Position numbers and translations under genes: made by a program. Positions 42,270 through 57,227 of a DNA stretch of 64,000 bases are shown here, in pieces. The notes beneath the pieces are model-generated. The model saw only the letters and a program-made list of their open reading frames with translations. It searched no databases and was not told where the DNA came from. Numbering within the stretch: the first letter of the stretch is position 1; each line of letters starts with the position of its first letter. The stretch spans positions 124,001-188,000 of the forward strand of contig NZ_FOGE01000001.1 in NCBI RefSeq assembly GCF_900111125.1, read 5' to 3'. This DNA is from Sphingobium sp. YR768. GTDB taxonomy: Bacteria; Pseudomonadota; Alphaproteobacteria; Sphingomonadales; Sphingomonadaceae.

Positions 42270-42285
42270 AAGCTATGGACATATT

Positions 42286-42732
42286 ATGACCGACCTCCCC
42301 ACCGTAGACATCTTCACCGACGGCGCGTGCAAGGGCAATCCCGGCCCCGGCGGCTGGGGCGCCGTGCTGCGCTTTGGCGACACGGAAAAGGAAATTTCCG
42401 GCGGCGAAGCGCAGACCACCAACAACCGCATGGAAATGATGGCGGCGGTCGAGGCGCTGAATCTGCTCAAAAAGCCCTGTCAGGTAACGCTCTATACCGA
42501 CAGCAAATATGTGATGGACGGCATCACCAAATGGATTTTCGGCTGGCAGAAGCGCGGCTGGAAGACCGCCGACAACAAGCCGGTCAAGAATGTCGAAATC
42601 TGGCAGGCGCTGGTGAAGGCCGCCGCGCGCCACAAGGTGACCTGGCAATGGGTGAAGGGCCATGCCGGCCACCCGGAAAATGAACGCGCCGACAAGCTCG
42701 CCTGCGCCGCGGCGGAGAGTTTTCGCCGATAG
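42286..42732 (+). CDS. rnhA: ribonuclease HI
   Basis: 148-aa RNase H1 that removes RNA from RNA-DNA hybrids. Active-site residues appear in [19 protein letters not shown] (D12), [13 protein letters not shown] (Glu), YTDSKYV (Asp) and [11 protein letters not shown] (Asp). The frame runs back through the family D repeat, so I use the ATG at 42286 ([10 protein letters not shown]). Confidence 0.97.
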
Positions 42733-42738
42733 TGATTG

Positions 42739-42905
42739 CCATTTCGTAAGTTGAGCGAAGGCGAACTAGCTGGCCCGGTCGATCGCCACTGGAGACGGAG
42801 CGGCCCTTTGGCCGTCCGCATTTCGGCGATATCAATGTGGAAACAACCGATCGGGCAGATCTTGAACTTGCGTTCCGGCCCCTTGTCGCCTGTCACGTCA
42901 GGCAA
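42739..42905 (-). pseudogene. decayed IS481-type transposase fragment
   Basis: Minus-strand translation gives LPDVTGDKGPERKFKICPIG followed by CFHIDIAEMRTAKG, a close match to the DDE domain of IS481 integrase-like transposases (usual form PIGFFHIDIAEVRTAEGKLYLF). After a frameshift the next frame continues AIDRAS-stop-FAFAQLTKW, which matches the usual AIDRTSKFAFVQL. The piece thus has at least one frameshift and one nonsense mutation and keeps only about 55 codons. It directly follows the rnhA stop. Confidence 0.7.
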
Positions 42906-43128
42906 GCGGGGACAAGGATCACGCCCTGCTCACGCTAAAGCAGCGTCGAATGCGCGCCTTTCCGGGTCGATGGTCCGATCTTTGGTTTTCGTGCGAGCGC
43001 TCCCGTGTAAAACGCACCGCATAGCGCATCCCTTCCTTCCTGACCGAATAGGTCAATAATCTACAAATCGCGTTCGGCCTGACCGCGACGGAGGCCTGCA
43101 CCTCCCATATCCCGGCAGAGGGGCCGTC
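42906..43128. other. rest of the rnhA to M17-like gap; no gene seen
   Basis: Only stop-rich, short frames in all six readings. Together with the transposase fragment this makes a roughly 400-bp intact-gene-free border between core genes and the accessory region. The minus-strand reading just before the transposase match gives no clear continuation. Confidence 0.5.
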
Positions 43129-43755
43129 ATGCAGCATGGTTCCCGATGGAAGGATGGAGCATCTTTGACTGGCATCGCAACGCAGCATGTGGGCAGTTTT
43201 CGCGCCATGCACTTCCACACGGGCAGCGTCGATCCGGTTGCTGATCGCGTTGATCTTCTGATCGTGGGCATGCCCGAGATATCCTGCGCATCACAGATCG
43301 GAGGCATCACCTGCGCGCTTGATGCGGCACTTTCCGGCACCTTGTCGCATTTGCGGGCTGGCGGCGTGTTCGAGGGCAGATTTGGTGAGACATTGATTTT
43401 ATCCAGTCCACCTTCGCCCGTGAGATCGAATTCCCTGCTGGTTGTCGGGATGGGAGATGCCGACCAACTCGATGCAGCGAGACTGGGTCGCCTGGCCGCC
43501 GTAGCAATGCGCGCAGCAGTGCAACTCGACGTTCGATCCATGGCATGTCTTTTGGGGCCAATCTCGATCGATGCATCGGCAAATGATGTCGCGCAAGCGG
43601 CGCGCGAAATGATGATCGGCGTTCTGGGAGCGCTCGACAAACATCAGGATCGCCGAAAGGTCGACGACACTATCTGCATCTTCGATCTTCGGACCCTCCA
43701 TGCCGACATCGCAACCGACCGATTCAAGGCTGTGCTCAATCAATGGGACTTTTAG
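43129..43755 (+). CDS. stand-alone M17 aminopeptidase N-terminal-like domain protein
   Basis: Up to 208 aa. The core (VDLLIVGMPE, ALDAALSGTLSHLRAGGVFEG, GETLILSSPP, NSLLVVGMGDADQLDAARLG) resembles the N-terminal macro-like domain of M17 leucyl aminopeptidases. The metallopeptidase C-terminal domain is absent: after REMMIGVLGALDKHQDRR the protein ends within about 40 residues. Probably a regulatory or ligand-binding protein. The start is uncertain: ATG 43129, or TTG 43165, which has a strong GGAAGGATGGAG site. Lies 60 nt before the response regulator. Confidence 0.72.
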   Translation: MQHGSRWKDGASLTGIATQHVGSFRAMHFHTGSVDPVADRVDLLIVGMPEISCASQIGGITCALDAALSGTLSHLRAGGVFEGRFGETLILSSPPSPVRSNSLLVVGMGDADQLDAARLGRLAAVAMRAAVQLDVRSMACLLGPISIDASANDVAQAAREMMIGVLGALDKHQDRRKVDDTICIFDLRTLHADIATDRFKAVLNQWDF

Positions 43756-43815
43756 CCCGCCCTGGCGTCACACAGATGCATGGACAGTTCCGGCGCAGCG
43801 GGCTTAGTTAGAGCC

Positions 43816-44478
43816 ATGCATCCGCGTCCGAATCCTAGTCCGGATATGCCGCATCCAGTATCACCCATCTCGATCCTGGTTGTGGACGACCACGCCCTGC
43901 TGAGGGAGGGCGTTCGCGCCATGCTGTCCACGCAGGCCGACATGCACATCGTCGGGGAGGCGGACAACGGCGTGAGCGCGGTTGAGGCCTACGATAAGCT
44001 GCTGCCCGATATCGTCCTCATGGACTTGCAGATGGCCGACGGCTCGGGACTTGATGCGATCAAGGCGATCCGGGCCAATCATGCCGATGCCCGTATCATC
44101 GTACTGACGACCTATTCGGGCGACGGTCGCGCGCTGAGGGCGCTGCGGTCCGGCGCGATGGGCTACCTGCTCAAGGCCAGCCTCAGGAAGCAGCTTCTCG
44201 ATGCCATTCGATCGGTCCATGTAGGCGGCAAGCATCTGGATGCCACTGTCGCGACCGCGATCGCCCTGCACGTTCTGGAAGATCCGCTGACCGACAGAGA
44301 GATTGCGATTCTGTCGCTGGCCGCATCTGGAAATTCCAACAAGCTGGCCGGCTCGATGCTCGATATCACCGAAGAGACGGTGAAGGGGCATATGAAGTCG
44401 ATCTTCTCCAAACTGGGCGCCCGGGACCGCACGCACGCCGTCACGATCGCGATCCAGCGGGGCCTCATCGAGGTCTGA
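43816..44478 (+). CDS. NarL/FixJ family response regulator
   Basis: Receiver domain with ILVVDDHALLREGVRAML, phospho-acceptor Asp in DIVLMDLQMADGSGLDAI (D70 from this start), TTYSGDG and YLLKASLRK. A LuxR-type HTH follows (PLTDREIAILSLAASGNSNK, ETVKGHMKSIFSKLGARDRT). About 220 aa; ATG 43846 is an alternative start. A HisKA_3 kinase of the matching class is encoded at 53481, on the other side of the hydrolase operons. No other kinase is in the window, so the two are a likely pair. Confidence 0.9.
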   Translation: MHPRPNPSPDMPHPVSPISILVVDDHALLREGVRAMLSTQADMHIVGEADNGVSAVEAYDKLLPDIVLMDLQMADGSGLDAIKAIRANHADARIIVLTTYSGDGRALRALRSGAMGYLLKASLRKQLLDAIRSVHVGGKHLDATVATAIALHVLEDPLTDREIAILSLAASGNSNKLAGSMLDITEETVKGHMKSIFSKLGARDRTHAVTIAIQRGLIEV

Positions 44479-44645
44479 TCCAGCATGCACAGCGGCAACG
44501 CTTTTGTCGTTATGCTCTCTATCACCGCAGCTTGATCCAATACCCCGAACGTCGCGGGAGGCATCATCTTGCGCGTTGGACATCGGGGGCCGGACAGCAA
44601 CGAATCACCCGTTGCTGAACTGTCACTCCATCTGACATTTCGAAA

Positions 44646-44677
44646 AATTCGAACATATCGGATAATTTTATCCGAGT
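44646..44677 (+). promoter_or_regulatory. regulatory element, copy 1 (AATTCGAACAT plus palindrome)
   Basis: AATTCGAACAT (44646-44656) is followed by an 18-bp palindrome, TCGGATAATTTTATCCGA (44658-44675). The copy at 48586-48617 has the identical first 11 bases and an ungapped similar second part. It lies about 75 nt before the isochorismatase-like gene, in an AT-rich 270-bp gap. Likely a binding site for the response regulator. Confidence 0.6.
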
Positions 44678-44750
44678 ATTTCAAATCAAACCTGCGAGCT
44701 ATCCAATGCTTGCCGCAGCGAGATGCTGCCCGAACGCAAGGAGCCGACTT

Positions 44751-45410
44751 ATGACGATCACCGCCACGCCGACCCCCGGAAAATCCCTCCTCTCGCCCAG
44801 CGACCACACCCTCATTCTGATCGATTTCCAGTCGCAAATGTCTTTCGCGACCAAGTCGATCGCACCTGAACTGCTGCGCAACAATGCTGCCCTGATCAGC
44901 CGCGCCGCCAAGTCCTTCAACGTGTCGACCATTCTGACGACCGTTGCGGAGAAGAGCTTCTCCGGCCCGATGTTCGATGAGATCACCGATGCCTTCCCCG
45001 GTCAGCCCCTGCTCGATCGCACCAGCATGAATACCTGGGAAGATGCCGGCGTGATCGAGGAAGTGAACCGCATCGGCAAGGAACGCATCGTGTTCGCCGG
45101 TCTTTGGACCAGCGTCTGCATAGTCGGCCCGGTCGCCTCCGCGATCGATCAGGGCTTCGACGCCTATTTCATCGCCGACGCCTGCGGCGATATCAGCGAA
45201 GAAGCCCATGAACGCGCCGTGCAGCGCATGATCCAGCTGGGCGCCAAGCCGATGACCTCGCTCCAGTACATGCTGGAACTGCAACGCGACTGGGCCCGCA
45301 CCGAAACCTATGACTCCACCACCGGCATCGCCAAGCAATGGGGCGGCGCCTATGGCCTGGGCATCAAATACGCCAAGACCATGTTCGGCGCCTCCGAAGG
45401 CAGCCACTAA
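44751..45410 (+). CDS. isochorismatase-family hydrolase (YcaC-like)
   Basis: 219 aa from ATG 44751, preceded by AAGGAG. Cysteine hydrolase fold: LILIDFQSQM (Asp25), RTSMNTWED and VFAGLWTSVCIVGPVASAI (nucleophile Cys123). It is the YcaC-type subgroup with the long C-terminal arm ending YGLGIKYAKTMFGASEGSH. The substrate is unknown; relatives cleave small amides or carbamoyl compounds. First gene of the first operon, under the copy 1 element. Confidence 0.88.
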   Translation: MTITATPTPGKSLLSPSDHTLILIDFQSQMSFATKSIAPELLRNNAALISRAAKSFNVSTILTTVAEKSFSGPMFDEITDAFPGQPLLDRTSMNTWEDAGVIEEVNRIGKERIVFAGLWTSVCIVGPVASAIDQGFDAYFIADACGDISEEAHERAVQRMIQLGAKPMTSLQYMLELQRDWARTETYDSTTGIAKQWGGAYGLGIKYAKTMFGASEGSH

Positions 45411-45419
45411 GTCTGGCGC

Positions 45420-45461
45420 GGACCGGCGGCTTCTCTCCCTCTCCCCCGGGGCCGCCGGTCC
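45420..45461 (+). other. intercistronic stem-loop
   Basis: Perfect 11-bp stem GGACCGGCGGC/GCCGCCGGTCC with a pyrimidine-rich 20-nt loop, starting 10 nt after the isochorismatase-like stop. There is no T tract after it, so mRNA processing or partial attenuation is more likely than full termination. The next gene follows at 45500. Confidence 0.75.
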
Positions 45462-45499
45462 CCCTCCTTCTTCCCCCGACTTTGACAAAGGATCATCCC

Positions 45500-46336
45500 A
45501 TGAGCTTCGTGACCACCGACGATGGCGTCGACATCTTCTTCAAGGACTGGGGCAGCAAGGACGCCCAGCCCATCATGTTCCACCATGGCTGGCCGCTCTC
45601 GTCCGACGACTGGGACGCGCAGATGCTGTTCTTCCTGTCGAAGGGCTATCGCGTCATCGCCCATGATCGCCGCGGCCATGGCCGTTCGGCACAGGTGAGC
45701 GAAGGCCATGACATGGCCCATTATGCCGCCGACGCCGCCGCCGTCGCCCGTCACCTCGACCTGAAAAACGCCATCCATATCGGCCATTCGACCGGTGGCG
45801 GCGAAGTCGCCGCCTATGTCGCCCGCTATGGCTTGCCCGAAGGCCGCGTGGCCAAGGCCGTGCTGGTCAGCGCCGTGCCGCCGATCATGCTGGCGACCGA
45901 TCGTTATCCCGATGGCCTGCCGATGGCTGTGTTCGACGGCCTGCGCGCTGGCCTTGCCGCCAATCGCGCGCAATTTTTCCGCGATGTCGCCGCTGGTCCC
46001 TTCTACGGCTTCAACCGGGAAGGCGCGGACGTGAAGCCCGCCGTCATCGACAATTGGTGGCGTCAGGGCATGATGGGTAGCGCCAAGGCCCATTATGACG
46101 GCATCAAGGCTTTTTCCGAAACCGACCAGACCGATGATCTGGCCGCCATCACCGTGCCGACGCTGGTGCTGCATGGCGACGATGACCAGGTCGTGCCGTA
46201 CAAGAATGCTGGCGTGTTGCAGGCGCAGATCCTGCCCAATGCGACCCTCAAAATCTATGAGGACTACTCGCATGGCATGCTGACGGTGAATGCCGACGTG
46301 CTGAACGCCGACATCCTCGCCTTCATCCAGGCCTGA
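45500..46336 (+). CDS. alpha/beta hydrolase (non-heme chloroperoxidase/esterase type)
   Basis: 278 aa. Oxyanion region HHGWPLSSDDWD, DRRGHGRS, nucleophile elbow HIGHSTGGGE (Ser97), Asp in LHGDDDQVVPY and His in DYSHGM. The match is to the cofactor-free chloroperoxidase/arylesterase group. Cytoplasmic, with no signal peptide. Start ATG 45500 (MSFVTTDDGVDIFFKDWG). The second product of the operon; may hydrolyse an ester or lactone linked to the other hydrolases here. Confidence 0.9.
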   Translation: MSFVTTDDGVDIFFKDWGSKDAQPIMFHHGWPLSSDDWDAQMLFFLSKGYRVIAHDRRGHGRSAQVSEGHDMAHYAADAAAVARHLDLKNAIHIGHSTGGGEVAAYVARYGLPEGRVAKAVLVSAVPPIMLATDRYPDGLPMAVFDGLRAGLAANRAQFFRDVAAGPFYGFNREGADVKPAVIDNWWRQGMMGSAKAHYDGIKAFSETDQTDDLAAITVPTLVLHGDDDQVVPYKNAGVLQAQILPNATLKIYEDYSHGMLTVNADVLNADILAFIQA

Positions 46337-46359
46337 TAGAACCGAAAAGGAGACCGGCG

Positions 46360-46608
46360 ATGAAAGTCTATCTTCTCTCTCTGGGCGCCGGTCTGCTGGT
46401 CGGCATCGTCTATTCGCTGCTGGGGGTGCGCTCGCCCGCGCCCCCGGTGGTGGCCCTGATCGGCCTGCTCGGCATATTGATCGGCGAACAGGTCATCCCG
46501 CTCGCAAAGCGCTGGGCCGACAGCCATGAACTGGCCCGCTTCGCCCGCAACGAATGCCGCGACCATGTGCTGGGGCGCCTGCCCGATAATCAAAAGGGCG
46601 ACGCATGA
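46360..46608 (+). CDS. XapX domain protein (DUF1427)
   Basis: 82 aa with two hydrophobic stretches (VYLLSLGAGLLVGIVYSLLGV and PPVVALIGLLGILIGEQVIP), typical for the XapX/DUF1427 family of small membrane proteins. It ends with a charged tail. XapX proteins are often found next to hydrolase genes and may help small-molecule transport, but no function is proven. Overlaps the amidohydrolase start (ATGA). Confidence 0.88.
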   Translation: MKVYLLSLGAGLLVGIVYSLLGVRSPAPPVVALIGLLGILIGEQVIPLAKRWADSHELARFARNECRDHVLGRLPDNQKGDA

Positions 46609-48533
46609 TTACGCGCCGCGACGCCATGGCCGGGGTGGCCGCCTCCGCCCTCCTCTCCCCCTTCTCTGCCAACGCCAAGGAACGCCCCATGACCGACACG
46701 ATCATCGTCAATGCCAAGGTGACGACGCTGGACCGGAGCAATCCGGTGGCGGAAGCGGTCGCCATCCGCGACGGCAAGTTCCTGGCGGTGGGCAGCGAAG
46801 CCGAAGTCCGCGCCGCCGCCCCCGGCGCGACCGTGATCGACGCCAAGGGCCATCGCCTGATCCCCGGCCTGATCGACAGTCACATGCACATCATCCGTGG
46901 CGGCCTGAATTTCAACATGGAACTGCGCTGGGATGGCGTGCCGACGCTGGCCGAAGCGATGGATATGCTGAAAGCCCAGGTCGATCGCACCCCGGCCCCG
47001 CAATGGGTGCGCGTGGTGGGCGGCTTTACCGAGCATCAGTTTGCTGAAAAGCGCCTGCCGACGATCGCCGAACTGAACGCCGTCGCGCCCGACACCCCGG
47101 TCTTCATCCTGCACCTCTATGACCGCGCGCTGCTCAACGCCGCCGCGCTGCGCGTCGTGGGCTATACAAAGGACACGCCCAACCCGCCGGGCGGCGAGAT
47201 CGTGCGCGACTCCGCGGGCAACCCGACCGGCCTGCTGCTGGCGCAGCCCAATGCGACGATCCTTTATTCGACGCTGGCCAAGGGGCCGAAGCTGCCGCAG
47301 GACTATCAGCTCAATTCCACTCGCCATTTCATGCGCGATGTCAATGCGCTGGGCGTGACCGGCGTGATCGACGCCGGCGGCGGCTTCCAAAATTATCCCG
47401 ACGATTATGAGATTATCGAGAAACTGCATCAGGACGATCAGCTGACCGTCCGCATCAGCTATAATCTCTTCACGCAGAAGCCCAAGGAAGAGCTGGCCGA
47501 TTTCTCCGGCTGGGTGAAACAGGTCACGCCGGGGCAGGGCGACGATACCTATCGCCACAATGGCGCAGGCGAAATGCTGGTCTATTCGGCCGCCGACTTC
47601 GAGGATTTTCGTCAGCCCCGGCCGGACATGGCGCCCAGCATGGAGGGCGACCTCGAACCCGTCATCCGCCTGCTCGCCGAACATAAATGGCCCTGGCGCC
47701 TGCACGCCACCTATGACGAAACGATCGGCCGGGCGCTCGACGTCTATGAGAAGGTGAACCGGGACATCCCCTTGCAGGGCATCAACTGGTTCTTCGACCA
47801 TGCCGAAACCATCAGCGACCGCAATATCGACCGCATCGCCGCGCTGGGCGGCGGCATCGCCGTGCAGCATCGCATGGCCTATCAGGGCGAATATTTCGTC
47901 GAACGCTATGGCGCGAAGGCGGCCGAGCGCACCCCGCCGATTTCCCGCATGATCGCCGCGGGCATTCCTGTGGGCGCCGGCACCGACGCCACCCGCGTCG
48001 CCAGCTACAATCCGTGGGTGTCGCTGAGCTGGCTCGTCACCGGCCGCACCGTGGGCGGCTTCGCCCTCTATCGTGGCGACAATCGCGTCAGCCGGGAAAA
48101 GGCGCTGGCCATGTGGACCCATGAAAACACCTGGTTCTCCAACGAAATCGGCAAGAAGGGTCAGATCAAGGCCGGGCAACTGGCCGACCTCGCGCTGCTG
48201 TCCGCCGACTATTTCTCCGTGCCGGAGGATCAGATCGTCCATATCCGATCGGTCCTGACCCTGCTGGGCGGCAAGGTGGTCTTTGGCGAGGGCGACTATG
48301 CCCCGCTCGCACCCGACCTGCCCAAGCCCATGCCCGACTGGTCGCCGGTCGCGACCTTCGGCGGCTATCACAAGACCCGTGAAGCCCGCGCGCAACTGGC
48401 GTCGGCCTGTGGATGTGCCAGTGCTTGCGGCGTCCATGGCCACGACCATGCCGCCGCCCTTGGCGCCGATGTTCCGGCCGCCGATGTGCAGACCTTCTGG
48501 GGATCACTCGGCTGCGGCTGCTGGGCCGTCTGA
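46605..48533 (+). CDS. Tat-exported amidohydrolase (YtcJ-like) with Cys/His-rich C-terminus
   Basis: 642 aa. N-terminal twin-arginine signal MITRRDAMAGVAASALLSPF SANA, then an amidohydrolase_3 domain: DTIIVNAKVTTLD, metal ligands DSHMHI (H93, H95), WRLHATYDE, WFFDHAETISDRNI, GIPVGAGTDATR and KGQIKAGQLADLALLS. The last ~44 residues are unusual: C602, C604, C608, H611, H613, H615, C637 and C639 form a possible metal-binding tail not needed for the TIM-barrel. It acts in the periplasm on an unknown amide or cyclic substrate. Last gene of the first operon. Confidence 0.88.
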   Translation: MITRRDAMAGVAASALLSPFSANAKERPMTDTIIVNAKVTTLDRSNPVAEAVAIRDGKFLAVGSEAEVRAAAPGATVIDAKGHRLIPGLIDSHMHIIRGGLNFNMELRWDGVPTLAEAMDMLKAQVDRTPAPQWVRVVGGFTEHQFAEKRLPTIAELNAVAPDTPVFILHLYDRALLNAAALRVVGYTKDTPNPPGGEIVRDSAGNPTGLLLAQPNATILYSTLAKGPKLPQDYQLNSTRHFMRDVNALGVTGVIDAGGGFQNYPDDYEIIEKLHQDDQLTVRISYNLFTQKPKEELADFSGWVKQVTPGQGDDTYRHNGAGEMLVYSAADFEDFRQPRPDMAPSMEGDLEPVIRLLAEHKWPWRLHATYDETIGRALDVYEKVNRDIPLQGINWFFDHAETISDRNIDRIAALGGGIAVQHRMAYQGEYFVERYGAKAAERTPPISRMIAAGIPVGAGTDATRVASYNPWVSLSWLVTGRTVGGFALYRGDNRVSREKALAMWTHENTWFSNEIGKKGQIKAGQLADLALLSADYFSVPEDQIVHIRSVLTLLGGKVVFGEGDYAPLAPDLPKPMPDWSPVATFGGYHKTREARAQLASACGCASACGVHGHDHAAALGADVPAADVQTFWGSLGCGCWAV

Positions 48534-48585
48534 TCGGGTTCCGGCCCCTCCCACAGCGGAAAGGCCGGCTACCAATCATTCCATT

Positions 48586-48617
48586 AATTCGAACATGATG
48601 GTCGATTTTATTCGGAT
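48586..48617 (+). promoter_or_regulatory. regulatory element, copy 2 (AATTCGAACAT)
   Basis: AATTCGAACAT is identical to copy 1. The rest aligns without gaps as nnnGGnnnATTTTATYCG. It lies about 63 nt before the VOC-protein gene and 53 nt after the amidohydrolase stop, so it probably starts the second operon. Confidence 0.6.
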
Positions 48618-48679
48618 CGATCGAGCGATGCTTGCTGCCTAGAACCCGTCTTGCCCCCTGACTAACCGGAGCCACAGAC

Positions 48680-49585
48680 ATGACCCGCGTCACCATGATC
48701 CTCGCGACCCTGATGGTCGCCGCCACCCCGATCGCTGCTGTACCGGCAACAGCCAAAACTGCCGCCACCACTGCCGATTATTCGGTCGGCCCGCAATATG
48801 ACACCACCCATGTCTATGTGCCCGAAGGCCAGTTCGACGCCTTCGTCGCCAGCTTCGTCGCGACCTTTGGCGGCAAGACGTCGAAGCAGGGCGAATTTCA
48901 GGTGACGCCCACCCCCAGCCTCACCAAGTCGCAACTGGCGCTGACCCCGGCCGGCACCGTCTCGGTCTTCGGCTTCAAGACGCCGATCCCCTATCCCTTC
49001 GGCGATGAACGTACCGGCTATCTGGTCAGCGACATGGACGCAGCCGTCGCTTCCGCCATGAAGCATGGTGCCGTGCGCCGCATCGCCACCTTCCCCGATC
49101 CCATCGGCCGCGACGTGGTGGTGCAATGGGCCGGCGGCGTGAACATGCAGCTTTACTGGCACACCGCCAAGCCCAACTATCCCGCGCTCACCACCGTTCC
49201 GGAAAACCGCATCTACCTGACCGCCGACGTCGCCGACACATTCATCAAGGACTGGACCGGCTTTGCCCATGGCAAGATCGTCTCCGAAGACCGCGCCGCA
49301 AAAGGTGAGGAAATCGGCCAGCCCGGCAAGAGCATCCGCCGCGTCGCCATCGACAGCGGCTATGGCAAGATGACCGTCTTCGTCTCCGACGGCCAACTGC
49401 CCTGGCCCTATGGCCGCGACATGACCGGCTATGAAGTCGCCGACCTTGACGCCACCTTGGCCAAGGCGTCGGCGGCTGGCGTAGAAACACTGGTCGCGCC
49501 ACAGACCGTCGCTGGCCGCCAGAGCGCCATCCTGCGCTTCCCCGGCGGCTATATCGCCGAAGTCCACGCCCCGGAGGCGAAGTAA
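48680..49585 (+). CDS. exported glyoxalase/bleomycin-resistance (VOC) fold protein
   Basis: 301 aa with a Sec signal (VTMILATLMVAATPIAAVPATA), then two VOC-like halves: YDTTHVYVPEGQFDAFVASFVATFGG and ENRIYLTADVADTFIKDWTGF, the latter continuing to MTGYEVADLDATLAKASAAGVETLV. VOC proteins bind metals and small molecules; secreted ones are rare, and the substrate is unknown. First gene of the second operon. Confidence 0.78.
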   Translation: MTRVTMILATLMVAATPIAAVPATAKTAATTADYSVGPQYDTTHVYVPEGQFDAFVASFVATFGGKTSKQGEFQVTPTPSLTKSQLALTPAGTVSVFGFKTPIPYPFGDERTGYLVSDMDAAVASAMKHGAVRRIATFPDPIGRDVVVQWAGGVNMQLYWHTAKPNYPALTTVPENRIYLTADVADTFIKDWTGFAHGKIVSEDRAAKGEEIGQPGKSIRRVAIDSGYGKMTVFVSDGQLPWPYGRDMTGYEVADLDATLAKASAAGVETLVAPQTVAGRQSAILRFPGGYIAEVHAPEAK

Positions 49586-49586
49586 G

Positions 49587-50015
49587 ATGCGGCCCGACCG
49601 CGACCCGCGCTTCGTCGACGCTATCCTCGACTGGAAGCCAACCTGGTTCATCGCCCGGCTGTTGCTGGTCGGCGCCTATCTGCTGGGCGGCATCGTCAAA
49701 CTGACTGACTGGTCGGCGGCGGTCGCGGAACAGGCGCATTTCGGCATGAGCCCGCCAGCGCTCTGGGCGGCGCTCACCATCGCGCTCGAACTGGTCGGCC
49801 CGCTGCTGATCCTGACTGGCCGGCTGGTCTGGCTGGGCGCGGGCATGCTGGGAGTCTTCACCCTGCTCGCCGCCTTCACCGCCAACGCCTTCTGGACGAT
49901 GCCGATGGGGCAAGATCGCTTCATGGCGACAAATGCCTTTTTCGAGCATCTCGGCCTGATCGGTGGCTTCATCCTCGCGGCGCTCGTCGCCGAACAGGCG
50001 CAGCGCCGTGCTTAA
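49587..50015 (+). CDS. DoxX family membrane protein
   Basis: 142 aa with four hydrophobic segments (FIARLLLVGAYLLGGIVKL and later ones), the DoxX fold. It starts 1 nt after the VOC gene stop and overlaps the porin gene start. DoxX proteins are tied to redox or thiol processes in other bacteria; the role here is unknown. Confidence 0.87.
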   Translation: MRPDRDPRFVDAILDWKPTWFIARLLLVGAYLLGGIVKLTDWSAAVAEQAHFGMSPPALWAALTIALELVGPLLILTGRLVWLGAGMLGVFTLLAAFTANAFWTMPMGQDRFMATNAFFEHLGLIGGFILAALVAEQAQRRA

Positions 50016-51384
50016 GAAAACTGCCTGCCTAGCCCTTTCGCTCTGCGCGTCCGGCCCGCTGGCCGCGCAGACGACCGAGGCCTGGCAGGCGCCGACCCTG
50101 TCGATCACCCGCTATGATGAGGACTGGTCCGATCTGGCCGACGCGGAAAAGCGCGGCCACCACTGGACCGGCCCGTTCAAATATATCCCGCTTGGTGATG
50201 ACAATTGGCTCTCGACCGGCGTGGAAGTCCGGTTACGCAATGAGAATTACCGCAACAACCTGTGGGGCGGAGCCGACGCCCCCGACGACTCCTATCTCTG
50301 GGCGCGGGCCATGCCCTATGCAGACCTGCATGTCGGCGCGCCCGACGCGCTCCATGCCCGCGCCTTCGTTCAGCCGATCATCAGCTATGCGGTCGGGGTC
50401 GCCCCCGCAGCCGGCCCGATCGACCAGAGCCGCGTCGACATGCTCCAGAGCTTCGCCGAAGTGGGCGTCGGCCCCGTCACCCTGCGCGGCGGGCGGCAGA
50501 TGCTTTCGCTCGGCACCGAAAGGCTGGTCGGCACCCGCTATGGCCCCAATACGCCGCTGGCCTTCGATGGCGTGCGCGGCAGCCTATTGCTGGGCAAAGG
50601 ACGCAAACTCGACCTGTTCCTGCTGAACCCGGTGCAACCCGGTCCCGCCAGCTTCGACGATCGCACCTCCGACACCCGCAAATTGTGGGGCGCCTATGCG
50701 ACGCTGCCAGAACTGGACCTCTATTATCTGCGCTATCGCAACCGCGCCGCGCGCTTCGGCGGGCTGACCGGGCGGGAGGAACGTCACAGCATCGGCGCCC
50801 GATCGCATGGCGTGCGCGGCGACTGGCACTGGAATGTCGAGGGCGTCTACCAGTTTGGCCATTATGAAGGGCAGCGCATTGCCGCCTGGACGATCGGCAC
50901 CGAAGTCGGCCGCACCCTGCGCCGCCTGCCGTTATCCCCCGACGCGACGCTGCGCTTCAACATCGTCAGCGGCGATCGTAACAGCGAAGATGACAGGTTG
51001 GGCACGTTCAACGCGCTGTTCCCCAAAGGCAAATATTTCGGCGAACTCTCACCCGTCGGCCCGACCAATATCGTCAGCCTCAATCCCCGCCTCAGCGCGC
51101 CGCTGGGCAACGGCTTTTCCGCCAGTCTCGCCGCGATGGCCTATTGGCGCTACGCCCGCAATGACGGCGTCTACGACATTCCCGGCAATCTGATCCGCGC
51201 CGCTGGCGACAGCCGCTCCCGCTTCATCGGCAAGGAAGCCGAAGCGACGCTTGCCTGGCAGGCGACGCCGGAGCTGGAACTGTCCACTTCCCTGTCTCTC
51301 TTCGCGCCGGGCGCCTTCATCCGCGACACCGGCCCGGCCAGGACCATCGCCATGACCGGCTTCGAAGCCAATTTTCGTTTCTAA
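50008..51384 (+). CDS. alginate-export-family outer-membrane porin
   Basis: 458 aa from GTG 50008: signal peptide LKKTACLALSLCASGPLAAQ, then repeated amphipathic strands (NWLSTGVEVRLRNENYRNN, GPVTLRGGRQMLSLGTERL) and a C-terminal Phe (ANFRF) typical of outer-membrane barrels. It matches the AlgE-type alginate_exp group, which also contains uptake porins for aromatic and other small acids. Likely brings the module's substrate across the outer membrane. Overlaps the DoxX gene by 8 bp. Confidence 0.85.
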   Translation: MLKKTACLALSLCASGPLAAQTTEAWQAPTLSITRYDEDWSDLADAEKRGHHWTGPFKYIPLGDDNWLSTGVEVRLRNENYRNNLWGGADAPDDSYLWARAMPYADLHVGAPDALHARAFVQPIISYAVGVAPAAGPIDQSRVDMLQSFAEVGVGPVTLRGGRQMLSLGTERLVGTRYGPNTPLAFDGVRGSLLLGKGRKLDLFLLNPVQPGPASFDDRTSDTRKLWGAYATLPELDLYYLRYRNRAARFGGLTGREERHSIGARSHGVRGDWHWNVEGVYQFGHYEGQRIAAWTIGTEVGRTLRRLPLSPDATLRFNIVSGDRNSEDDRLGTFNALFPKGKYFGELSPVGPTNIVSLNPRLSAPLGNGFSASLAAMAYWRYARNDGVYDIPGNLIRAAGDSRSRFIGKEAEATLAWQATPELELSTSLSLFAPGAFIRDTGPARTIAMTGFEANFRF

Positions 51385-51404
51385 CCCTTCAAAGGATTTT
51401 CCCC

Positions 51405-52106
51405 ATGCCGCCAGCCCCGCAAAATTCCTCCCCGCTTCCCGGCCTGCTCCTGCTGCTGTCGACCACGACCGGCCTGGTCGATGCCGTCAGCGTGCTGGGC
51501 CTGGGCAAGGTGTTCACCGCCAATATGACCGGAAACGTCGTGTTCCTTGGCTTCGCCGCCGCCGGGACGCCCGGCTTCAAGGTCGCACCCTATCTGGTCG
51601 CGCTGCTGACCTTCTTCATCGGCGCCCTCATCGCCGGCCGCGTCGGGCAGGGTTTCGGCAAGCGACCGTTGCGGCACTGGCTGACCGTTGCCGCCCTGAT
51701 CGAAGCGGCCTTGCTGTGGATCGCCGCCATCGTCGCGCTCGGCTTCGACATTCCCTCGCTCAAGCCGACCGTCGCGCTGTTCGCGATCATCGCGCTGACC
51801 GCCATCGCCATGGGTTTCCGCAATGCCACCATCCGTCAGTTGAAGGTGCCCGACCTCACGACCACGGTGCTCACCCTGACGGTCACGGGCATTGCAGCGG
51901 ACTCCAGTCTGGCCGGGGGCAATAATCCCAATCTCGGCCGTCGCATCGGCGCCATCGTTGCGATCTTCGCGGGCGCGGCAGCCGGTGCACTGATGGTCAC
52001 GCATATGGGCCTTGCCCTGCCTCTGCTGGTCGCTGGCGGCGTCGTGCTGCTGGGCACCCTGCTGTGCGTGCGTCATCCTGCGGCCGCCCTGCCGCACGGC
52101 GCATGA
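51405..52106 (+). CDS. YoaK family (DUF1275) membrane protein
   Basis: 233 aa, about six membrane segments. DUF1275 signatures: STTTGLVDAVSVLGLGKVFTANMTGNVVFLGFA, GFRNATIRQL and DLTTTVLTLTVTGIAADSSL. The function of the family is not known; transport is likely. Last gene of the second operon; it converges on the TMEM175 gene. Confidence 0.9.
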   Translation: MPPAPQNSSPLPGLLLLLSTTTGLVDAVSVLGLGKVFTANMTGNVVFLGFAAAGTPGFKVAPYLVALLTFFIGALIAGRVGQGFGKRPLRHWLTVAALIEAALLWIAAIVALGFDIPSLKPTVALFAIIALTAIAMGFRNATIRQLKVPDLTTTVLTLTVTGIAADSSLAGGNNPNLGRRIGAIVAIFAGAAAGALMVTHMGLALPLLVAGGVVLLGTLLCVRHPAAALPHGA

Positions 52107-52107
52107 A

Positions 52108-52683
52108 TCAGCGCGCGGCAACCCGCGCAAAGCGCCGATCCGGGACGAACCAAAGAGCGATGACAAGGATATAGAGGCCCACCGCGACCCAGCGGCTCAC
52201 GAAACTCAGGGGAATAGCTGCGCCATAGATGGCCAGCGTTCCCCAGCCTTTCCAGTCCATCCCCAGCGCCCGTGCCAGCTTGGATTCGGTCCCGTTGCAG
52301 GCCACGATCGCCCGCTCGGTGAGGAAATAGCCGATGGCGGCCCCGCCCAGCACGATGCCATAGGTCGCCGTCGCGCCTGTCGAATAGGCGCTGTCATCCA
52401 GCCAGCGGATGACGAAGGGCACAAGGCTAAGCCAGAAGAGCAAGAACAGGTTCGCCCACAACACCCGCCCGTCGATACGCGGGTTGAGCTGGAACAGATG
52501 ATGGTGATTATTCCAATAGAGGCCGACATTCACGAAGCTCAATATATAGGCGATCAGCAACGGCAGACGTTGCGCCAGATCGGCCAGAGAGCCGCCGCTC
52601 GGCACCTTGAGTTCCAGCACCATGATGGTGATGATGATGGCGATCACACCGTCCGTGAAAGCCTCAAGACGTTTGCTGTTCAT
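52108..52683 (-). CDS. TMEM175 family potassium channel-like protein (DUF1211)
   Basis: 191 aa, several membrane segments, with the family's RLEAFTDGVIAIIITIMVLEL (the FSD motif appears as FTD) and YWNNHHHLFQ. Bacterial TMEM175 proteins form K+ channels. The ATG at 52683 overlaps the end of the AraC-type gene (ATGA), so the two are cotranscribed. Confidence 0.9.
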   Translation of the reverse strand: MNSKRLEAFTDGVIAIIITIMVLELKVPSGGSLADLAQRLPLLIAYILSFVNVGLYWNNHHHLFQLNPRIDGRVLWANLFLLFWLSLVPFVIRWLDDSAYSTGATATYGIVLGGAAIGYFLTERAIVACNGTESKLARALGMDWKGWGTLAIYGAAIPLSFVSRWVAVGLYILVIALWFVPDRRFARVAAR

Positions 52684-53291
52684 GCGACCGCTCTTTGCCA
52701 GGTTCGTCGCCATAGCAAGGGCGTCGTGCCAACCAGCCGCTTGAACAGGCGCGTCAGATGCGCCTGATCGGCAAGGCCACAGGCACTGGCGATGTCCGAC
52801 AGGCTGTTTCCGGTTTCCAGCATCAGCCGTTGCGCGCGCCGGATGCGCTGGCGGATCACATAGGCATGCGGCGTTTCGCCCACGCTGACCTTGAAGGCGC
52901 GACAGAAATGTCCGGGGCTCAGGCTCGCGACCAGCGCCAGCTCCTCGACAATGAGGGGCCGACCCAGCCGATTTTGAACATAAGCCGTGACTTCTCTCAA
53001 CTGCCATCCGGCAAGGCCTCCGGCCTGCGGCGCCTGATGGGTGTCCGGTTGCGATGGAATGAGCGGCAGCGAAGAATCTTGCGGACGACTTGCCTGCCGT
53101 AACAAGCGGCAGACCCGATCCAGATAATGTCGTGCATCCTGCGGGTCGTTTTGCAACGCATTCTGCGCCTTGTTCAACAGGCCCAGAAGATAGTCGGGAT
53201 CGATTGCCTCTGCCGACCTGTTCTCGCCTGATGCGGAGGCCCCTCCTCGATAGGCTGGCGTCAAAATATGGGCATTTGAACGATCCAGCAT
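52680..53291 (-). CDS. AraC family transcriptional regulator
   Basis: 203 aa. C-terminal double HTH (about residues 98-195): VTAYVQNRLGRPLIVEELAL VASLSPGHFCRAFKVSVGETPHAY and ASACGLADQAHLTRLFKRLVGTTP. The N-terminal part is short and lacks the usual cupin domain. Divergent from the large histidine kinase gene. May control TMEM175 and perhaps the kinase. Confidence 0.88.
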   Translation of the reverse strand: MLDRSNAHILTPAYRGGASASGENRSAEAIDPDYLLGLLNKAQNALQNDPQDARHYLDRVCRLLRQASRPQDSSLPLIPSQPDTHQAPQAGGLAGWQLREVTAYVQNRLGRPLIVEELALVASLSPGHFCRAFKVSVGETPHAYVIRQRIRRAQRLMLETGNSLSDIASACGLADQAHLTRLFKRLVGTTPLLWRRTWQRAVA

Positions 53292-53339
53292 ATCCGGAAT
53301 GATGCGGCAGCGTTATGATTCGGCAAAGCCCCGAAGGAG

Positions 53340-53363
53340 GGGGCGATCGCCCCACTATAGGGG
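53340..53363. promoter_or_regulatory. palindromes in the araC/kinase divergent gap
   Basis: GGGGCGATCGCCCC (53340-53353) is a perfect 14-bp palindrome, partly overlapped by CCCC-ACTATA-GGGG (53350-53363). Lying between two divergent genes, one of them a regulator, they are possible operators. Confidence 0.4.
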
Positions 53364-53480
53364 GACTTGTGCGCCGGACGCATGGCGCTAGGTCTGTTCG
53401 CTTGCCGCTTGCCGCTTGGCGGTGTCGGCATCCGCCCTCGACCCGAGAAGCCCCGTTAGCATGATGCAATCGACAGTAGG

Positions 53481-56411
53481 ATGGTAAGATATTGGGCGCT
53501 GATCGCCTCCCTGTTGCTTGCCCCTCTTACCGGGGAGGGGCGGGCGCAAGGCCCGGCTCAATCCCTGTCCCAGATGCGCCATACCGGTTGGAGCCTGAAG
53601 GACGGCGCACCCGGCAATATCAGGGCGCTGGCGCAGGGAAAGGACGGTTTTCTCTGGCTGGGATCATCCACTGGTCTTTATCGCTTCGATGGCATTCGGT
53701 TTGACCGGATTCTGCCTGACCGTGACGATCCCCGCAGATCGCTTCAGGTCACCGCACTTCTTGCGGCGCGCAATGGCGATATCTGGGTCGGTTATGATTT
53801 CGGCGGCATCGCCGTCTATCGCGACGGCAGGTTGCATGACGCCAATCCCTGGCCACCACAAGGCGGCGTCAGTGCGATCGTACAGGCGCGGGACGGATCG
53901 GTCTGGGTCGCGGCGGATGCGCGCGGCAAGATACTCCTCTCCAGATACGCCCATGGCCGCTGGAGCCGCTATGGCGCGCAGCAGGGTCTGATCGACGGGA
54001 TGATGGGGCCGCTGCTGGCCACGTCGGACGGCAGCCTGTATGTGGCGCTGCCTCCGCATCTGCTGCGCCTCGCGCCAAACGCGTCGCGCTTTGTCAAATT
54101 GAACGAGCAGGTCGCATCCTACGCCGCCTTGGCGGAAGACGATGCCCATCGGCTGTGGCTGGCAGATGACAAGGGCTTGAGGGCGCTCGTGCCAAACAGC
54201 CCGCGCATCCGTTTGCCCGCGGTCAGCACCCCTTACATCACGCGCCATGTCACCATCGATCGCTATGGCCATATCTGGATCACCGGGCAGAATGAAGGCC
54301 TGGGCTACCTTCCAAAGGCACTGCCCAGGCTCGAAATCGCGGGAAAAGCGGCCGGACTTATCGACGGGTTGAGCCTGTCGGCGCTTGAAGATCGGGAAGG
54401 CAATATCTGGGTCGGGACCGAGGCAGGCCTCGACCGCTTTGCCAAAGCCAATCTCATCCAGGCTGGCGATGATACGGTCGTGACCGGCTTCGTGAAGCCA
54501 CCGCGTTCTGCGCGTTTCTTTTATGCCGGCACTGCGGGCGTCTATCGCGTTGCGGCGGATGCCAGGCCGAAGCTGATCTTTCGCAAATCCGATGTCGGGG
54601 TCCTGTGCGGCAACGAACGCAGGCTGTTGGCGATCAGCCTGTCGGGCGCCTTTCTGCTGGATCTGACCGAAAAGGGTGAGGTCGGACGCCAGACGGCGGT
54701 CGAAGGGCCGTTGTCGGTCAGTTGCGCAGTGGATGCCAAGGGGCAATTCTGGGCAGGCATGGATCGCCTCTATCGCCTGGAGGGCAATCACCTTCTGCCG
54801 ACGGCAGGCCCGGCAGGTCAGCCCGGCGGAACGATTACGTTGCTGCGAGCAGCGGGCGATGGAGGGCTGATCGCTGCACGCAGCCGCCAAGGGCTTTTCC
54901 GTATCGATGGCGCCACCGAAACGCTTTTGCTCCCGCGTGCAACCAGCCTTATCGGTTCGGTCAACACCCTGTTGCAGGATGGCGGCCACCTGCTCGTGGG
55001 CGGGCAAAAGGGCCTGACCTATCTGGGCGGTGGCAAGACCCAGACGCTGACGGAGCGTATCTATCCTTTTCTCGCCGGCATAACCGGCATTCACCGCACG
55101 CGCGATGGATGGACCTGGCTGAATGGCGCGACCGGGATCGTGCGGATCAGAAACGCTGCGCTTGAGGCTGGCTTCGCCCATCCCGGCCGGCCCATTCCCT
55201 ATGAACGCATCGGCCATGAAGGCAATTATCGCGCGCGATCCAATCTGTTCGATGCCAATGACATGGTGGAGGATGATAAGGGCCGGCTCTGGTTCGCGAC
55301 CAACCAGGGTCTTGCCTGGACGGCAGCCTACCGCCTGACGCAAAATTCCATGGCACCGCCGGTCGTGATCAAAGCCGTGCACGTCGATGCTGTGCGTTAC
55401 GCGATCGGGAATGGGCAAATCATGCTGCCCGCTCATAGCCAGAGGGTCCAGATCGACTATAGTGCGCTCAGCCTGACGGACGCGGAGGAAAACCGCTTCC
55501 GCTACCATCTGTCCGGCGCGGGCGCAGGCTGGTTTGACGCAGGCACGGAAAGGCAGGCCCTCTTCACCAACCTTGCACCGGGCCGCTATGCGTTTCGCGT
55601 CATCGCTGCAAATAATGATGGCATATGGAACAAGGAGGGCCAGCTCCTGTCCTTTGAGATCGCTCCCGCCTTCTACCAGACAAGGTGGTTCCTCGCCTTT
55701 TGCCTCGCCATTTTGCTTGGCGCATCATGGCTGCTGTATCGATGGCGATTGCAGGTGGTCGCGGAACGGGCGCGCGGCCGGGTCGAAGCGCAACTGCTCG
55801 AACGCGAACGCATCGCACGCGAACTGCACGATACGCTCCTCCAAGGATTTCAGGGCCTGATGCTGCGCTTTCAGGCCGTGGTCGAACTGCTTCCCCGCGG
55901 CCAAAGAGCCAGAGCCGAACTCGAAACGACCCTCGACCGCGCAGAGGAGGTGCTGATCGAGAGCCGGGAGCGCGTCCACACTCTGCGTCAGGATCTCGAA
56001 CCAGTCGTGCTTGCCGAGCGGCTCGATGCCTTGCTCCGCGATCTTATCGGCGAACGACTCCATTGGACGATCGAAGAACTGGGCGTCGTCCGTCTGGTTT
56101 GCGGTCCGGTGGCTGATGAAGCTGCCTGGATCGTGCGGGAAGCGGTCAGCAACAGCCTTCGCCATGCGTCCGCGTCGACCATCCTCCTGCGCATCTCTCA
56201 CGGAACGGAACGGCTGTCCGTTGCAGTCGTCGATGATGGCAGCGGACTGCCATCGCCTGTCATCGAAACAGGCATGCGCGAAGGCCATTATGGCATGGTT
56301 GGCATGCGTGAACGCGCGTGTCGGCTGACCGGGACATTGGAAATCAGCTCTGTAGCCCGGCAAGGCACAGAGATCCGGCTCATCATACCCGCGCGGGTCG
56401 CTTACCAATAG
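53481..56411 (+). CDS. histidine kinase with periplasmic beta-propeller sensor
   Basis: 976 aa. Signal peptide MVRYWALIASLLLAPLTGEG, then many Reg_prop blades (e.g. FLWLGSSTGLYRFDG, DIWVGYDFGGIAVYRDG, NIWVGTEAGLDRF, RLWFATNQGLAWT) over about residues 30-640. A Y_Y_Y domain (about 650-730), one membrane segment (about 735-755), a HisKA_3 domain with ERERIARELHDTLLQGFQGL (H783) and a HATPase with EAVSNSLRHAS, DDGSGLP and GMVGMRERA follow. HisKA_3 kinases pair with NarL/FixJ regulators, so the regulator at 43816 is the likely partner. The ligand is probably periplasmic. Confidence 0.94.
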   Translation: MVRYWALIASLLLAPLTGEGRAQGPAQSLSQMRHTGWSLKDGAPGNIRALAQGKDGFLWLGSSTGLYRFDGIRFDRILPDRDDPRRSLQVTALLAARNGDIWVGYDFGGIAVYRDGRLHDANPWPPQGGVSAIVQARDGSVWVAADARGKILLSRYAHGRWSRYGAQQGLIDGMMGPLLATSDGSLYVALPPHLLRLAPNASRFVKLNEQVASYAALAEDDAHRLWLADDKGLRALVPNSPRIRLPAVSTPYITRHVTIDRYGHIWITGQNEGLGYLPKALPRLEIAGKAAGLIDGLSLSALEDREGNIWVGTEAGLDRFAKANLIQAGDDTVVTGFVKPPRSARFFYAGTAGVYRVAADARPKLIFRKSDVGVLCGNERRLLAISLSGAFLLDLTEKGEVGRQTAVEGPLSVSCAVDAKGQFWAGMDRLYRLEGNHLLPTAGPAGQPGGTITLLRAAGDGGLIAARSRQGLFRIDGATETLLLPRATSLIGSVNTLLQDGGHLLVGGQKGLTYLGGGKTQTLTERIYPFLAGITGIHRTRDGWTWLNGATGIVRIRNAALEAGFAHPGRPIPYERIGHEGNYRARSNLFDANDMVEDDKGRLWFATNQGLAWTAAYRLTQNSMAPPVVIKAVHVDAVRYAIGNGQIMLPAHSQRVQIDYSALSLTDAEENRFRYHLSGAGAGWFDAGTERQALFTNLAPGRYAFRVIAANNDGIWNKEGQLLSFEIAPAFYQTRWFLAFCLAILLGASWLLYRWRLQVVAERARGRVEAQLLERERIARELHDTLLQGFQGLMLRFQAVVELLPRGQRARAELETTLDRAEEVLIESRERVHTLRQDLEPVVLAERLDALLRDLIGERLHWTIEELGVVRLVCGPVADEAAWIVREAVSNSLRHASASTILLRISHGTERLSVAVVDDGSGLPSPVIETGMREGHYGMVGMRERACRLTGTLEISSVARQGTEIRLIIPARVAYQ

Positions 56412-56444
56412 TTTTCCGGTGCTGACGGGGACGTGCCGGAAGGC

Positions 56445-57227
56445 CTATCGCCGCGCCAAAATCGACTCGATCAGCGTGACGTCATCCGGCTTGTCCGCGT
56501 CGATGCAGGCTTCCGGGCTCTCCATCGCCACCAGCCGCGCGGTCAGGCCGAATTTGCGACCGATCCGCGCGATGCCGCCGCGCAGCGTCAGGATGCGCAG
56601 TAATGCGCCCAGCAGCGCGAACGGCCCGAAGGCGGCCAGGATCTTCCAGCCCTTCTTGCGGTCCTGCTCTACCTCCTGCCACAGGGCGATGACCGGGCGG
56701 GCCTTGTCGCTGCCGAACCAGAAGATGTTCGCGCCCGACCACCAGCCATCGCGGAATTTGAGCCATGTGCGGCGCGATCCCGGATAGCGCGCCAGCAGCG
56801 TGTCCCGCTCCACCATGGCCACGGCGATATCTGCCCCGGTCGCTTCGGCGACGAACTGGTCCAGCATTGCGGCGTCCAGCAGCACATGATCGGCCGTGGT
56901 CAGCAGGATCGGGAAAGGCAGGTCGCCCTTTTCCAGCAGCGCCAGCAGCGACGAGGCGATCCCCTGCCCGCCCGTTTCGAACCGCACGCGCGGATCGGTC
57001 GCCAGCCAGCCGGTGGCGGGATCATCCGCGAACAGGTCGGGCCGCTGCGTCAATATGATCACCCGGTCGATCGCCGGATGCGCAAGCAGCGCGCGCGCCG
57101 GCCGGTTGATCATCGGCTCCCCGCCGACCGGCACCAGCGGCTTGACCGCAACGCCAGCGGCCTGCGCCAGCGGATCGGGAATCGGGCGGGCGCCAGCAAG
57201 CAGGATGGCGGTAAAGGAACCAGTCAT
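56445..57227 (-). CDS. MobA-like NTP transferase protein
   Basis: 260 aa with the N-terminal nucleotide-binding region TAILLAGARPIPDPLAQAAGVAVKPLVPVGGEPMI and LLTTADHVLLDAAMLDQFV, which fits the MobA-like/GT-A nucleotidyltransferase fold (CTP/GTP to sugar or molybdopterin-type acceptors). The C-terminal part WKILAAFGPFALLGALLRIL is hydrophobic and may touch the membrane. The exact substrate is not clear. Confidence 0.8.
   Translation of the reverse strand: MTGSFTAILLAGARPIPDPLAQAAGVAVKPLVPVGGEPMINRPARALLAHPAIDRVIILTQRPDLFADDPATGWLATDPRVRFETGGQGIASSLLALLEKGDLPFPILLTTADHVLLDAAMLDQFVAEATGADIAVAMVERDTLLARYPGSRRTWLKFRDGWWSGANIFWFGSDKARPVIALWQEVEQDRKKGWKILAAFGPFALLGALLRILTLRGGIARIGRKFGLTARLVAMESPEACIDADKPDDVTLIESILARR

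Follow-up and report, generated by a model that had tools for sequence, protein, structure and literature searches.

In Bacillus, the quinone and catechol resistance genes controlled by MhqR and CatR encode a VOC dioxygenase, a DoxX-type protein and the esterase MhqD. In Pseudomonas fluorescens In5 facing Rhizoctonia solani, an alpha/beta hydrolase (239-fold), a hydrolase, pirin-type quercetinases and DoxX were jointly induced, azoreductase and glutathionyl-hydroquinone reductase were induced as well, and the most induced gene was described as sharing 83% identity with an esterase of P. putida, according to the accessible sections of that report (PMC5557065). A paper of 2005 noted that the small proteins of DUF1427 (XapX) occur only in plant-associated Proteobacteria, including P. 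aeruginosa (PMC554113, accessible text), and XapX appears in a gene list in the accessible part of another paper (PMC13268207). The present analysis concerns a block of 13 genes from Sphingobium sp. YR768 in which DoxX and XapX stand beside several hydrolases. All coordinates refer to a 64-kb window, the whole stretch of DNA analysed, which corresponds to positions 124001-188000 of its contig (G000:C51) in a genome of 5.73 Mb. Judged from gene order, the block is a conserved, horizontally moving accessory cassette whose genes form one recurrent unit. Our overall reading, to which we give slightly better than even credence, is that of a mobile, LysR-regulated accessory cassette directed at an aromatic electrophile, with optional two-component input. 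Literature searches, which left most subscription papers out of reach, yielded no paper describing the gene set or giving a function for XapX, and none that combined XapX with an amidohydrolase and an isochorismatase, YcaC with YtcJ, or MhqR with DoxX, a dioxygenase and quinone.

Recurrence of the block and its shared control element

The block (42733..56443, about 13.7 kb, no strand assigned) fills the gap between rnhA and an NTP transferase gene, its edges being set by comparison with 11 uninterrupted same-genus loci. It contains two operons, the first with the order isochorismatase, alpha/beta hydrolase, XapX and amidohydrolase and the second with the order VOC-like gene, DoxX, porin and YoaK. 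All 13 genes were found in the same order and on the same strands, in other genomic settings, in three further genomes (L150-L152; G275, the genome of L150, shows one flank only). In a fourth locus (L155) the alpha/beta hydrolase and TMEM175 genes were missing, the others were present and the AraC gene was repositioned, and in G293 a 94% copy lay on another contig, the rnhA site of that genome being uninterrupted. Because the same gene order recurs at other genomic sites, the genes are read as one unit, which bears out the module idea of the preliminary description of this DNA. Orthologs of the amidohydrolase, 78-85% identical to that of the window, were present in 19 of 249 genomes of a family sample, the window's own included; one of these (G061) is a partial match with an internal stop, and a twentieth genome holds just a 41% relative. 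In a genus sample the ortholog was present in 25 of 62 genomes, and 18 of 25 other amidohydrolase places were fetched for comparison of gene order. One contig (G304:C5; L155 and L156) carried two cassettes about 96 kb apart, with amidohydrolases 88% and 81% identical to that of the window and with differing accessory genes.

Recurrence was also evident beyond the family. At least 587 genome stretches with a confirmed relative of the amidohydrolase were found, and the best 80, from alpha-, beta- and gammaproteobacteria, were surveyed for the other genes by tblastn, matches below 40% coverage being dropped, here and in the gene-order comparison of the fetched genus places, except for the kinase; some loci share a genome (L051 with L153, L028 with L056). 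The recurring core consisted of isochorismatase (75 loci), XapX (70) and the tailed Tat-type amidohydrolase, mostly accompanied by DoxX (69); further partners were alpha/beta hydrolase (44), porin (36), AraC (27), YoaK (22), the response regulator (21), the VOC-like gene (20), the kinase (12), the lone M17 N-terminal domain, here called M17N (7), and TMEM175 (5). As a negative control, the four core genes that border the block in the window were searched for too, and they were found at none of the 80 loci. Core gene order was conserved across classes, and the families thus do keep company elsewhere, as the module idea had implied. Most of these 80 loci hold the same core partners, yet the papers found give no function for XapX or for the set. 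Among 72,556 plasmid records, 377 also carried a relative of the amidohydrolase (in 29 cases below 60% identity), and many were rhizobial, with 102 from Rhizobium and 83 from Sinorhizobium. On two Escherichia albertii plasmids (CP045688.1 and CP043257.1) the match was confined to amidohydrolase residues 153-479, at about 74%.

Each operon is preceded by an exact copy of a 33-bp control element, TTC-N9-GAAC-N12-TTTAT. The first copy (44639..44671, + strand) lies 112 bp before the isochorismatase ATG and the second (48579..48611, + strand) 101 bp before the ATG of the VOC-like gene, two exact matches in the window compared with 0.01 expected. The corresponding pattern was found upstream of isochorismatase genes in 25 of 93 regions, a set that includes the window and some near-duplicate genomes, whereas 100 shuffled sets gave 0.0 on average. 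Copies were also noted 5' of the VOC-like gene in L150, L160, L162, L164 and L167 and, in L163, in which a VOC-like gene was not found, ahead of the start of DoxX, and near-miss forms were seen in L051, L065, L154, L157 and L158. The whole genome contains exactly four exact sites. The third lies in the divergent LysR/pirin intergenic region beside katG (L189:3930) and the fourth 5' of a gene for a 106-residue protein and a second pirin gene. Since 14 genomic sites were found with at most one mismatch, as opposed to 6 for a reversed-pattern control, only the four exact sites were used. The operon at the fourth site is G000:C73 (L188:5336-6823); in L157 and L158 the same pair of small gene and pirin gene lies next to the cassette, as does the small gene in L166. 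A T-N11-A dyad (TTC-N9-GAA) is common to 44639, 48579 and the two pirin promoters, and no sigma-70 promoters were found at the elements at the operon starts. These observations suggest that the two operons form one mini-regulon through the shared element. No copy was found between the divergent AraC and kinase genes (53291-53481), and these two regulators are therefore probably controlled differently from the operons.

The LysR gene next to the third site (G000:C83:167000-167929) is divergent from the pirin gene, adjacent to katG and unlinked to the cassette in this genome. A dyad at the start of a divergent LysR gene is the classic LysR layout, and a relaxed form of the element was present in 18 of 22 LysR-pirin intergenic regions (L028 and L056 seem to be a single genome entered twice). 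The LysR-pirin pair often adjoins the cassette in relatives. In the genus, LysR was found at E<=1e-80 in 24 of 25 cassette genomes as opposed to 13 of 37 others (p=6e-7), and at 80% identity or more in the same 24 of 25 as opposed to 6 of 37 (p=1.3e-10), shared ancestry being ignored in both tests and one genome (G256), with the gene split over two contig ends, being counted as positive. On the simplest reading of these sequences, the cassette would carry LysR operators and use a LysR that is linked to it in some genomes and resident elsewhere in others, and we infer that LysR binds and activates the operons. A mobile cassette could in this way retain operators for a regulator whose own gene does not move with it. 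With a defined element common to two operons and an unlinked regulator, the system is directly testable.

Predicted products and substrate class

Profile scans (Pfam and NCBIfam) of the block proteins recovered every gene named in the preliminary description, two of them to be taken with care: the VOC-like protein, which fell below its cut-off, and the M17 protein, which consists of the N-terminal domain alone. Operon 1 begins with a YcaC-like isochorismatase-fold cysteine hydrolase (44751-45410, + strand; PF00857). Alignment with E. coli and P. aeruginosa YcaC indicated that it keeps the active-site Asp, Arg, Asn and Cys named for the P. aeruginosa protein (PMC4519933, accessible text). Next are an alpha/beta hydrolase of the esterase or non-heme chloroperoxidase family (45500-46336, + strand; phmmer E=3.5e-129 to esterase chain 1zoi), the XapX/DUF1427 protein (46360-46608, + strand; TIGR03510, 66.3 bits, cut-off 27.8; PF07235, 123 bits, cut-off 27.1) and an Amidohydro_3 metallo-amidohydrolase (46605-48533, + strand; PF07969, 440 bits, E=1.9e-131) with a Tat-like twin-arginine N-terminus and a Cys/His-rich C-terminal tail. 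The first product of operon 2 (48680-49585, + strand) has a signal peptide, assigned by eye, and is VOC-like at most, its score against PF13669 being 18.3 bits for a cut-off of 27; no significant relative in PDB was found by sequence. It is followed by a DoxX family membrane protein (49587-50015, + strand; PF07681, 57.4 bits), an alginate-export-type outer-membrane porin with an uncertain start codon (about 50005-51384, + strand; PF13372, E=6.3e-68), for which no PDB relative was found by sequence, and a YoaK/DUF1275 membrane protein (51405-52106, + strand; PF06912, E=3.7e-38). Downstream, on the - strand, is a gene for a bacterial TMEM175-type channel protein (52108-52683; PF06736, 108.7 bits). 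A scan of 5 of the 13 cassette proteins for anti-phage defence gave no PADLOC match.

In the amidohydrolase, HxH and further His and Asp residues of metal-ligand type were invariant among 16 orthologs. The tail closes with GC-x-C-W-x-V or a close variant, the strict pattern being present in 104 of 111 relatives and a variant in 4 more. The three without a tail are distant paralogues (26-40% identical) that were included as outgroups, and loci cut by a contig end were excluded. A search with the tail by itself, which detects just proteins of similar length, returned 596 proteins, and the best 120 of these all carry the amidohydrolase domain. A loose twin-arginine motif was present in 84 of the 111 relatives and not found in 27, many of them outside the sphingomonads. 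A structure model built from 16 close orthologs had a mean predicted local distance difference test (pLDDT) score of 55.1, with the tail (residues 572-642) below 50, and is too poor to place the tail or to serve as a query for related folds.

Neighbouring genes in other taxa may indicate a class of substrate. Among 79 loci, an MFS_3 exporter-type gene was noted in 41, LysR genes of several kinds in 29, a cluster represented by a VOC-MhqD-like fusion in 17, pirin in 12, Dps in 3 and an OsmC-type protein in 3. In annotated plasmid regions, katG and genes for an antibiotic biosynthesis monooxygenase and an NAD(P)H oxidoreductase were further neighbours. The representative of the fusion cluster (L079:14176-15738) joins a VOC domain to an MhqD-like esterase; its score of 106.6 bits (E=1.3e-30) lies below the cut-off of 325 for MhqD (NF047577), and the protein is a neighbour in relatives only. 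From such neighbours, the cassette probably handles an aromatic compound or electrophile of the quinone or phenolic kind. The uptake function claimed in the preliminary description became uncertain as stated, with exporter-type MFS_3 neighbours at more than half of the loci.

The mechanism that we propose is as follows. In the presence of an aromatic electrophile (a quinone, hydroquinone or other phenolic), LysR (G000:C83) would bind the TTC-N9-GAA dyad and, once bound, would switch on both operons and the two pirin genes. The cassette proteins would act one after the other, with the porin and the exported VOC-like protein serving an envelope step, the putatively Tat-exported metallo-amidohydrolase a periplasmic step and the esterase and YcaC-like cysteine hydrolase a cytoplasmic step, DoxX, XapX and YoaK being the membrane proteins. 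The propeller kinase, the NarL-type regulator and the lone M17N protein would provide an added input that is optional. We hold this explanation as a whole to be slightly more probable than not.

Several observations weigh against this account. The element was absent or too divergent 5' of 68 of the 93 isochorismatase genes, mostly outside sphingomonads and caulobacters, and a half-element preceded the VOC-like gene in just 6 of 34 loci tested, in L121 perhaps by chance; at many of these 34 loci the VOC-like gene closely follows the amidohydrolase. One cassette genome (G272) is without LysR, and since LysR matches occur in the cassette-free genomes counted above (13 of 37, six of them at 80% identity or more), LysR has other work, probably at the pirin gene. 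The link between LysR and the DNA is a positional one. The quinone or phenolic idea comes from gene neighbourhoods in other taxa and, by analogy of protein families, from a single transcriptome, the porin and the amidohydrolase fit catabolism as well as detoxification, and membership of the VOC superfamily is weak.

A catabolic pathway for the uptake and hydrolysis of a nutrient, for instance an acylated or nitrogen-containing plant compound, in place of a stress cassette, is the alternative that survives best, and we consider it possible, though rather doubtful. Consistent with it are the porin and three hydrolases, counting the amidohydrolase, the many rhizobial plasmids that carry amidohydrolase relatives and the distribution reported for DUF1427 in 2005. 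Domain scans, however, recognised no ring-cleavage, coenzyme A or nitrogen-assimilation genes in the block, MFS_3 neighbours are of exporter type, and a stress function is suggested by the presence of pirin, Dps, OsmC and katG nearby. On this evidence from sequence we favour the role in handling an aromatic electrophile, only a little ahead of the catabolism of some compound from plants or soil. A wider possibility, which we offer tentatively, is that of an undescribed, widespread proteobacterial system against aromatic electrophiles, built on a Tat amidohydrolase whose conserved Cys/His tail would have the candidate role of binding metal or trapping the electrophile and whose partners would be XapX, DoxX and the YcaC-like hydrolase. 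The LysR element would plug such a cassette into the resident stress regulon wherever it lands, and some sphingomonads would add a three-part sensor of M17N, kinase and NarL-type regulator.

Regulators, separate histories and the insertion site

The 976-residue sensor histidine kinase (53481-56411, + strand; Reg_prop propeller, Y_Y_Y, HisKA_3 and HATPase_c) and the NarL/FixJ response regulator (43780-44478, + strand; PF00072 receiver and PF00196 LuxR-type helix-turn-helix) are of matching two-component classes, as noted in the preliminary description, and their genes were adjacent in many relatives (L027, L029, L031, L038, L042, L048, L053, L054, L057, L072 and L101, and by annotation L136 and L137). 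A kinase without a regulator was noted in L028 and L056. Thirteen other genomes had a kinase match, and in 7 of them the best one lay less than 5 kb from the module amidohydrolase; the regulator was near the cassette in 4 of 18 other places fetched. Kinase and regulator thus look like a cognate pair that is cassette-linked in some lineages only. Directly 5' of the regulator is the lone peptidase M17 N-terminal domain (43129-43755, + strand; PF02789, 50.7 bits, cut-off 23.4, E=2.2e-13), without a catalytic domain. In a search across the genus that covered M17N, and not the regulator or kinase, it was found in 5 of 62 genomes, all five with the cassette (5 of 25) and with the gene in the same position; M17N also directly precedes the regulator in L046, L047, L049, L055, L058 and L074. 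The other regulator of the block is of the AraC type (52680-53291, - strand; PF12833 helix-turn-helix, 72 bits).

Synonymous divergence (dS) from G263 was lowest in the genes from isochorismatase to porin (0.30-0.42), intermediate in YoaK and TMEM175 (0.64-0.69) and highest in M17N, regulator, AraC and kinase (0.88-1.18), and the same ranking appeared against G275 (0.31-0.67, 0.75-0.81 and 1.18-2.17). Because dS differs in this way between the enzyme core and the regulators, the histories of enzymes and regulators are, as these comparisons have it, partly separate. GC content was 0.58-0.59 across 43000-44999 (M17N and regulator) and 0.61-0.66 in the rest of the block, which fits a separate history for those two genes. 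The ratio of nonsynonymous to synonymous divergence (dN/dS) against G263 was below 0.36 everywhere, and all cassette genes look to be under purifying selection.

The preliminary description had the whole module under two-component control. Of this, the linkage of the pair to the cassette in some lineages stood, whereas control by it was not supported as stated, the shared element being present in cassettes without the pair and sitting at the LysR-pirin promoter; for these reasons that control model is probably incomplete and needs revision, the element pointing to LysR acting in trans. That the kinase and NarL-type pair is nonetheless the main switch of both operons, with LysR acting on pirin only, appears unlikely. 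Linkage, adjacency in many relatives and the position of the regulator and M17N directly 5' of operon 1 speak for it. However, the element also stands ahead of operon 1 in many cassettes for which the examined stretch contains neither of the two genes (L157-L159, L161-L163, L065 and L059), M17N and the regulator accompany few cassettes, and the dS values of regulator, kinase, AraC and M17N indicate histories different from that of the core. Control by LysR, with the pair as an optional addition, accords better with these results.

Extracytoplasmic function (ECF) sigma factors prefer GAAC at the -35 position. That the 33-bp element is an ECF-type promoter, with GAAC followed by TC 16 bases on, and not a LysR operator, is in our judgement improbable, yet an alternative to be taken seriously: GAAC-N16-TC fits many copies by eye and no sigma-70-like promoter was found at the elements, but the 5' TTC that completes the T-N11-A dyad is kept, the element is found repeatedly at the start of the divergent LysR gene, and domain scans found no sigma gene in the block. 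A LysR operator remains the preferred interpretation of the element.

The site of insertion was defined by comparison of the rnhA interval in relatives. The thrB homologue, rnhA and the NTP transferase gene were contiguous in 10 of 60 other same-genus genomes searched (11 places, all fetched), and homology of the window to these 11 loci stopped at about 42725-42732 (rnhA stop) and restarted at about 56440-56461 (NTP transferase stop). Six further same-genus genomes (G283, G303, G291, G255, G295 and G304) had the same flanking genes with 3.1-18.7 kb in the gap, in which none of the 13 cassette genes was found (L191-L196); in the remaining genomes rnhA and the NTP transferase gene were separated by a greater distance, lay on two contigs or could not both be located. 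Since the gap is empty in 10 same-genus genomes and holds other DNA in six more, it is, on these alignments, a variable insertion site or integration hot spot of which this cassette is one cargo. At the left edge, the IS481 remnant previously noted was supported: it is a degraded IS481-type transposase fragment (42749..42909, no strand assigned) with a 73.8% nucleotide match to a plasmid record annotated as IS481 family transposase. Other records matched 42756-43050 in two pieces at 79.8%, with no feature annotated there, no second copy of the left-edge DNA was found in this genome, and no transposase or integrase domains were found among the main open reading frames scanned within the block. 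Accumulation of unrelated genes at a hot spot, although suggested by the other DNA in the gap of six relatives, the IS481 fragment and the dS differences between parts, is very improbable, as it is contradicted for the whole gene set by three genomes that carry all 13 genes in identical order at different sites, and a core order kept across classes also speaks against it.

Outside the block, a stretch of roughly 100 bp that separates rnhA from the thrB homologue (42188-42286) was missing in 7 of the 11 relatives' loci. This stretch has a 26-bp match at 3168-3193 and extends the rnhA open frame, the real start of which is probably at 42286.

Comparison with described systems

Three of the enzymes resemble described proteins. 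The cassette hydrolase shares its fold family and active-site Asp, Arg, Asn and Cys with YcaC of E. coli (1yac) and P. aeruginosa (4wgf), but at 117.5 bits, compared with a cut-off of 310 for the NCBIfam YcaC equivalog (NF041461), it is YcaC-like only. The alpha/beta hydrolase matched Pseudomonas-type esterases and non-heme chloroperoxidases (1zoi, 1a88 and 4dgq) over its full length, with 433 bits to 1zoi; unlike them, it is encoded in an operon with XapX and the amidohydrolase. The amidohydrolase has the catalytic domain and invariant metal-ligand-type His and Asp residues of YtcJ-type Amidohydro_3 enzymes, to which it adds the Cys/His-rich tail ending in GC-x-C-[W/F]-x-[V/F], whereas three distant paralogues examined are without it.

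A DoxX-type protein together with a Cys-rich stretch also recalls the HvfX or bufferin-type loci for maturation of copper-related ribosomally synthesized and post-translationally modified peptides (RiPPs). That interpretation was rejected, the DoxX protein scoring 19 bits for a cut-off of 80 and the Cys-rich stretch being the tail of an enzyme.

At the level of the whole system, the response of P. fluorescens In5 to R. solani resembles the predicted role in that an alpha/beta hydrolase, pirins and DoxX rise with quinone-reducing enzymes, but the genes are at scattered locus tags and, in the accessible sections of the report, neither XapX nor an amidohydrolase is among them (PMC5557065). The likeness to the MhqR and CatR genes of Bacillus lies in the VOC-DoxX neighbourhood and, in relatives' loci, in an MhqD-like esterase fused to a VOC domain. 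The Sphingobium cassette differs from them in being without a MarR-type repressor, in having an exported VOC-like protein and in its additional amidohydrolase, XapX, YcaC-like hydrolase and porin.

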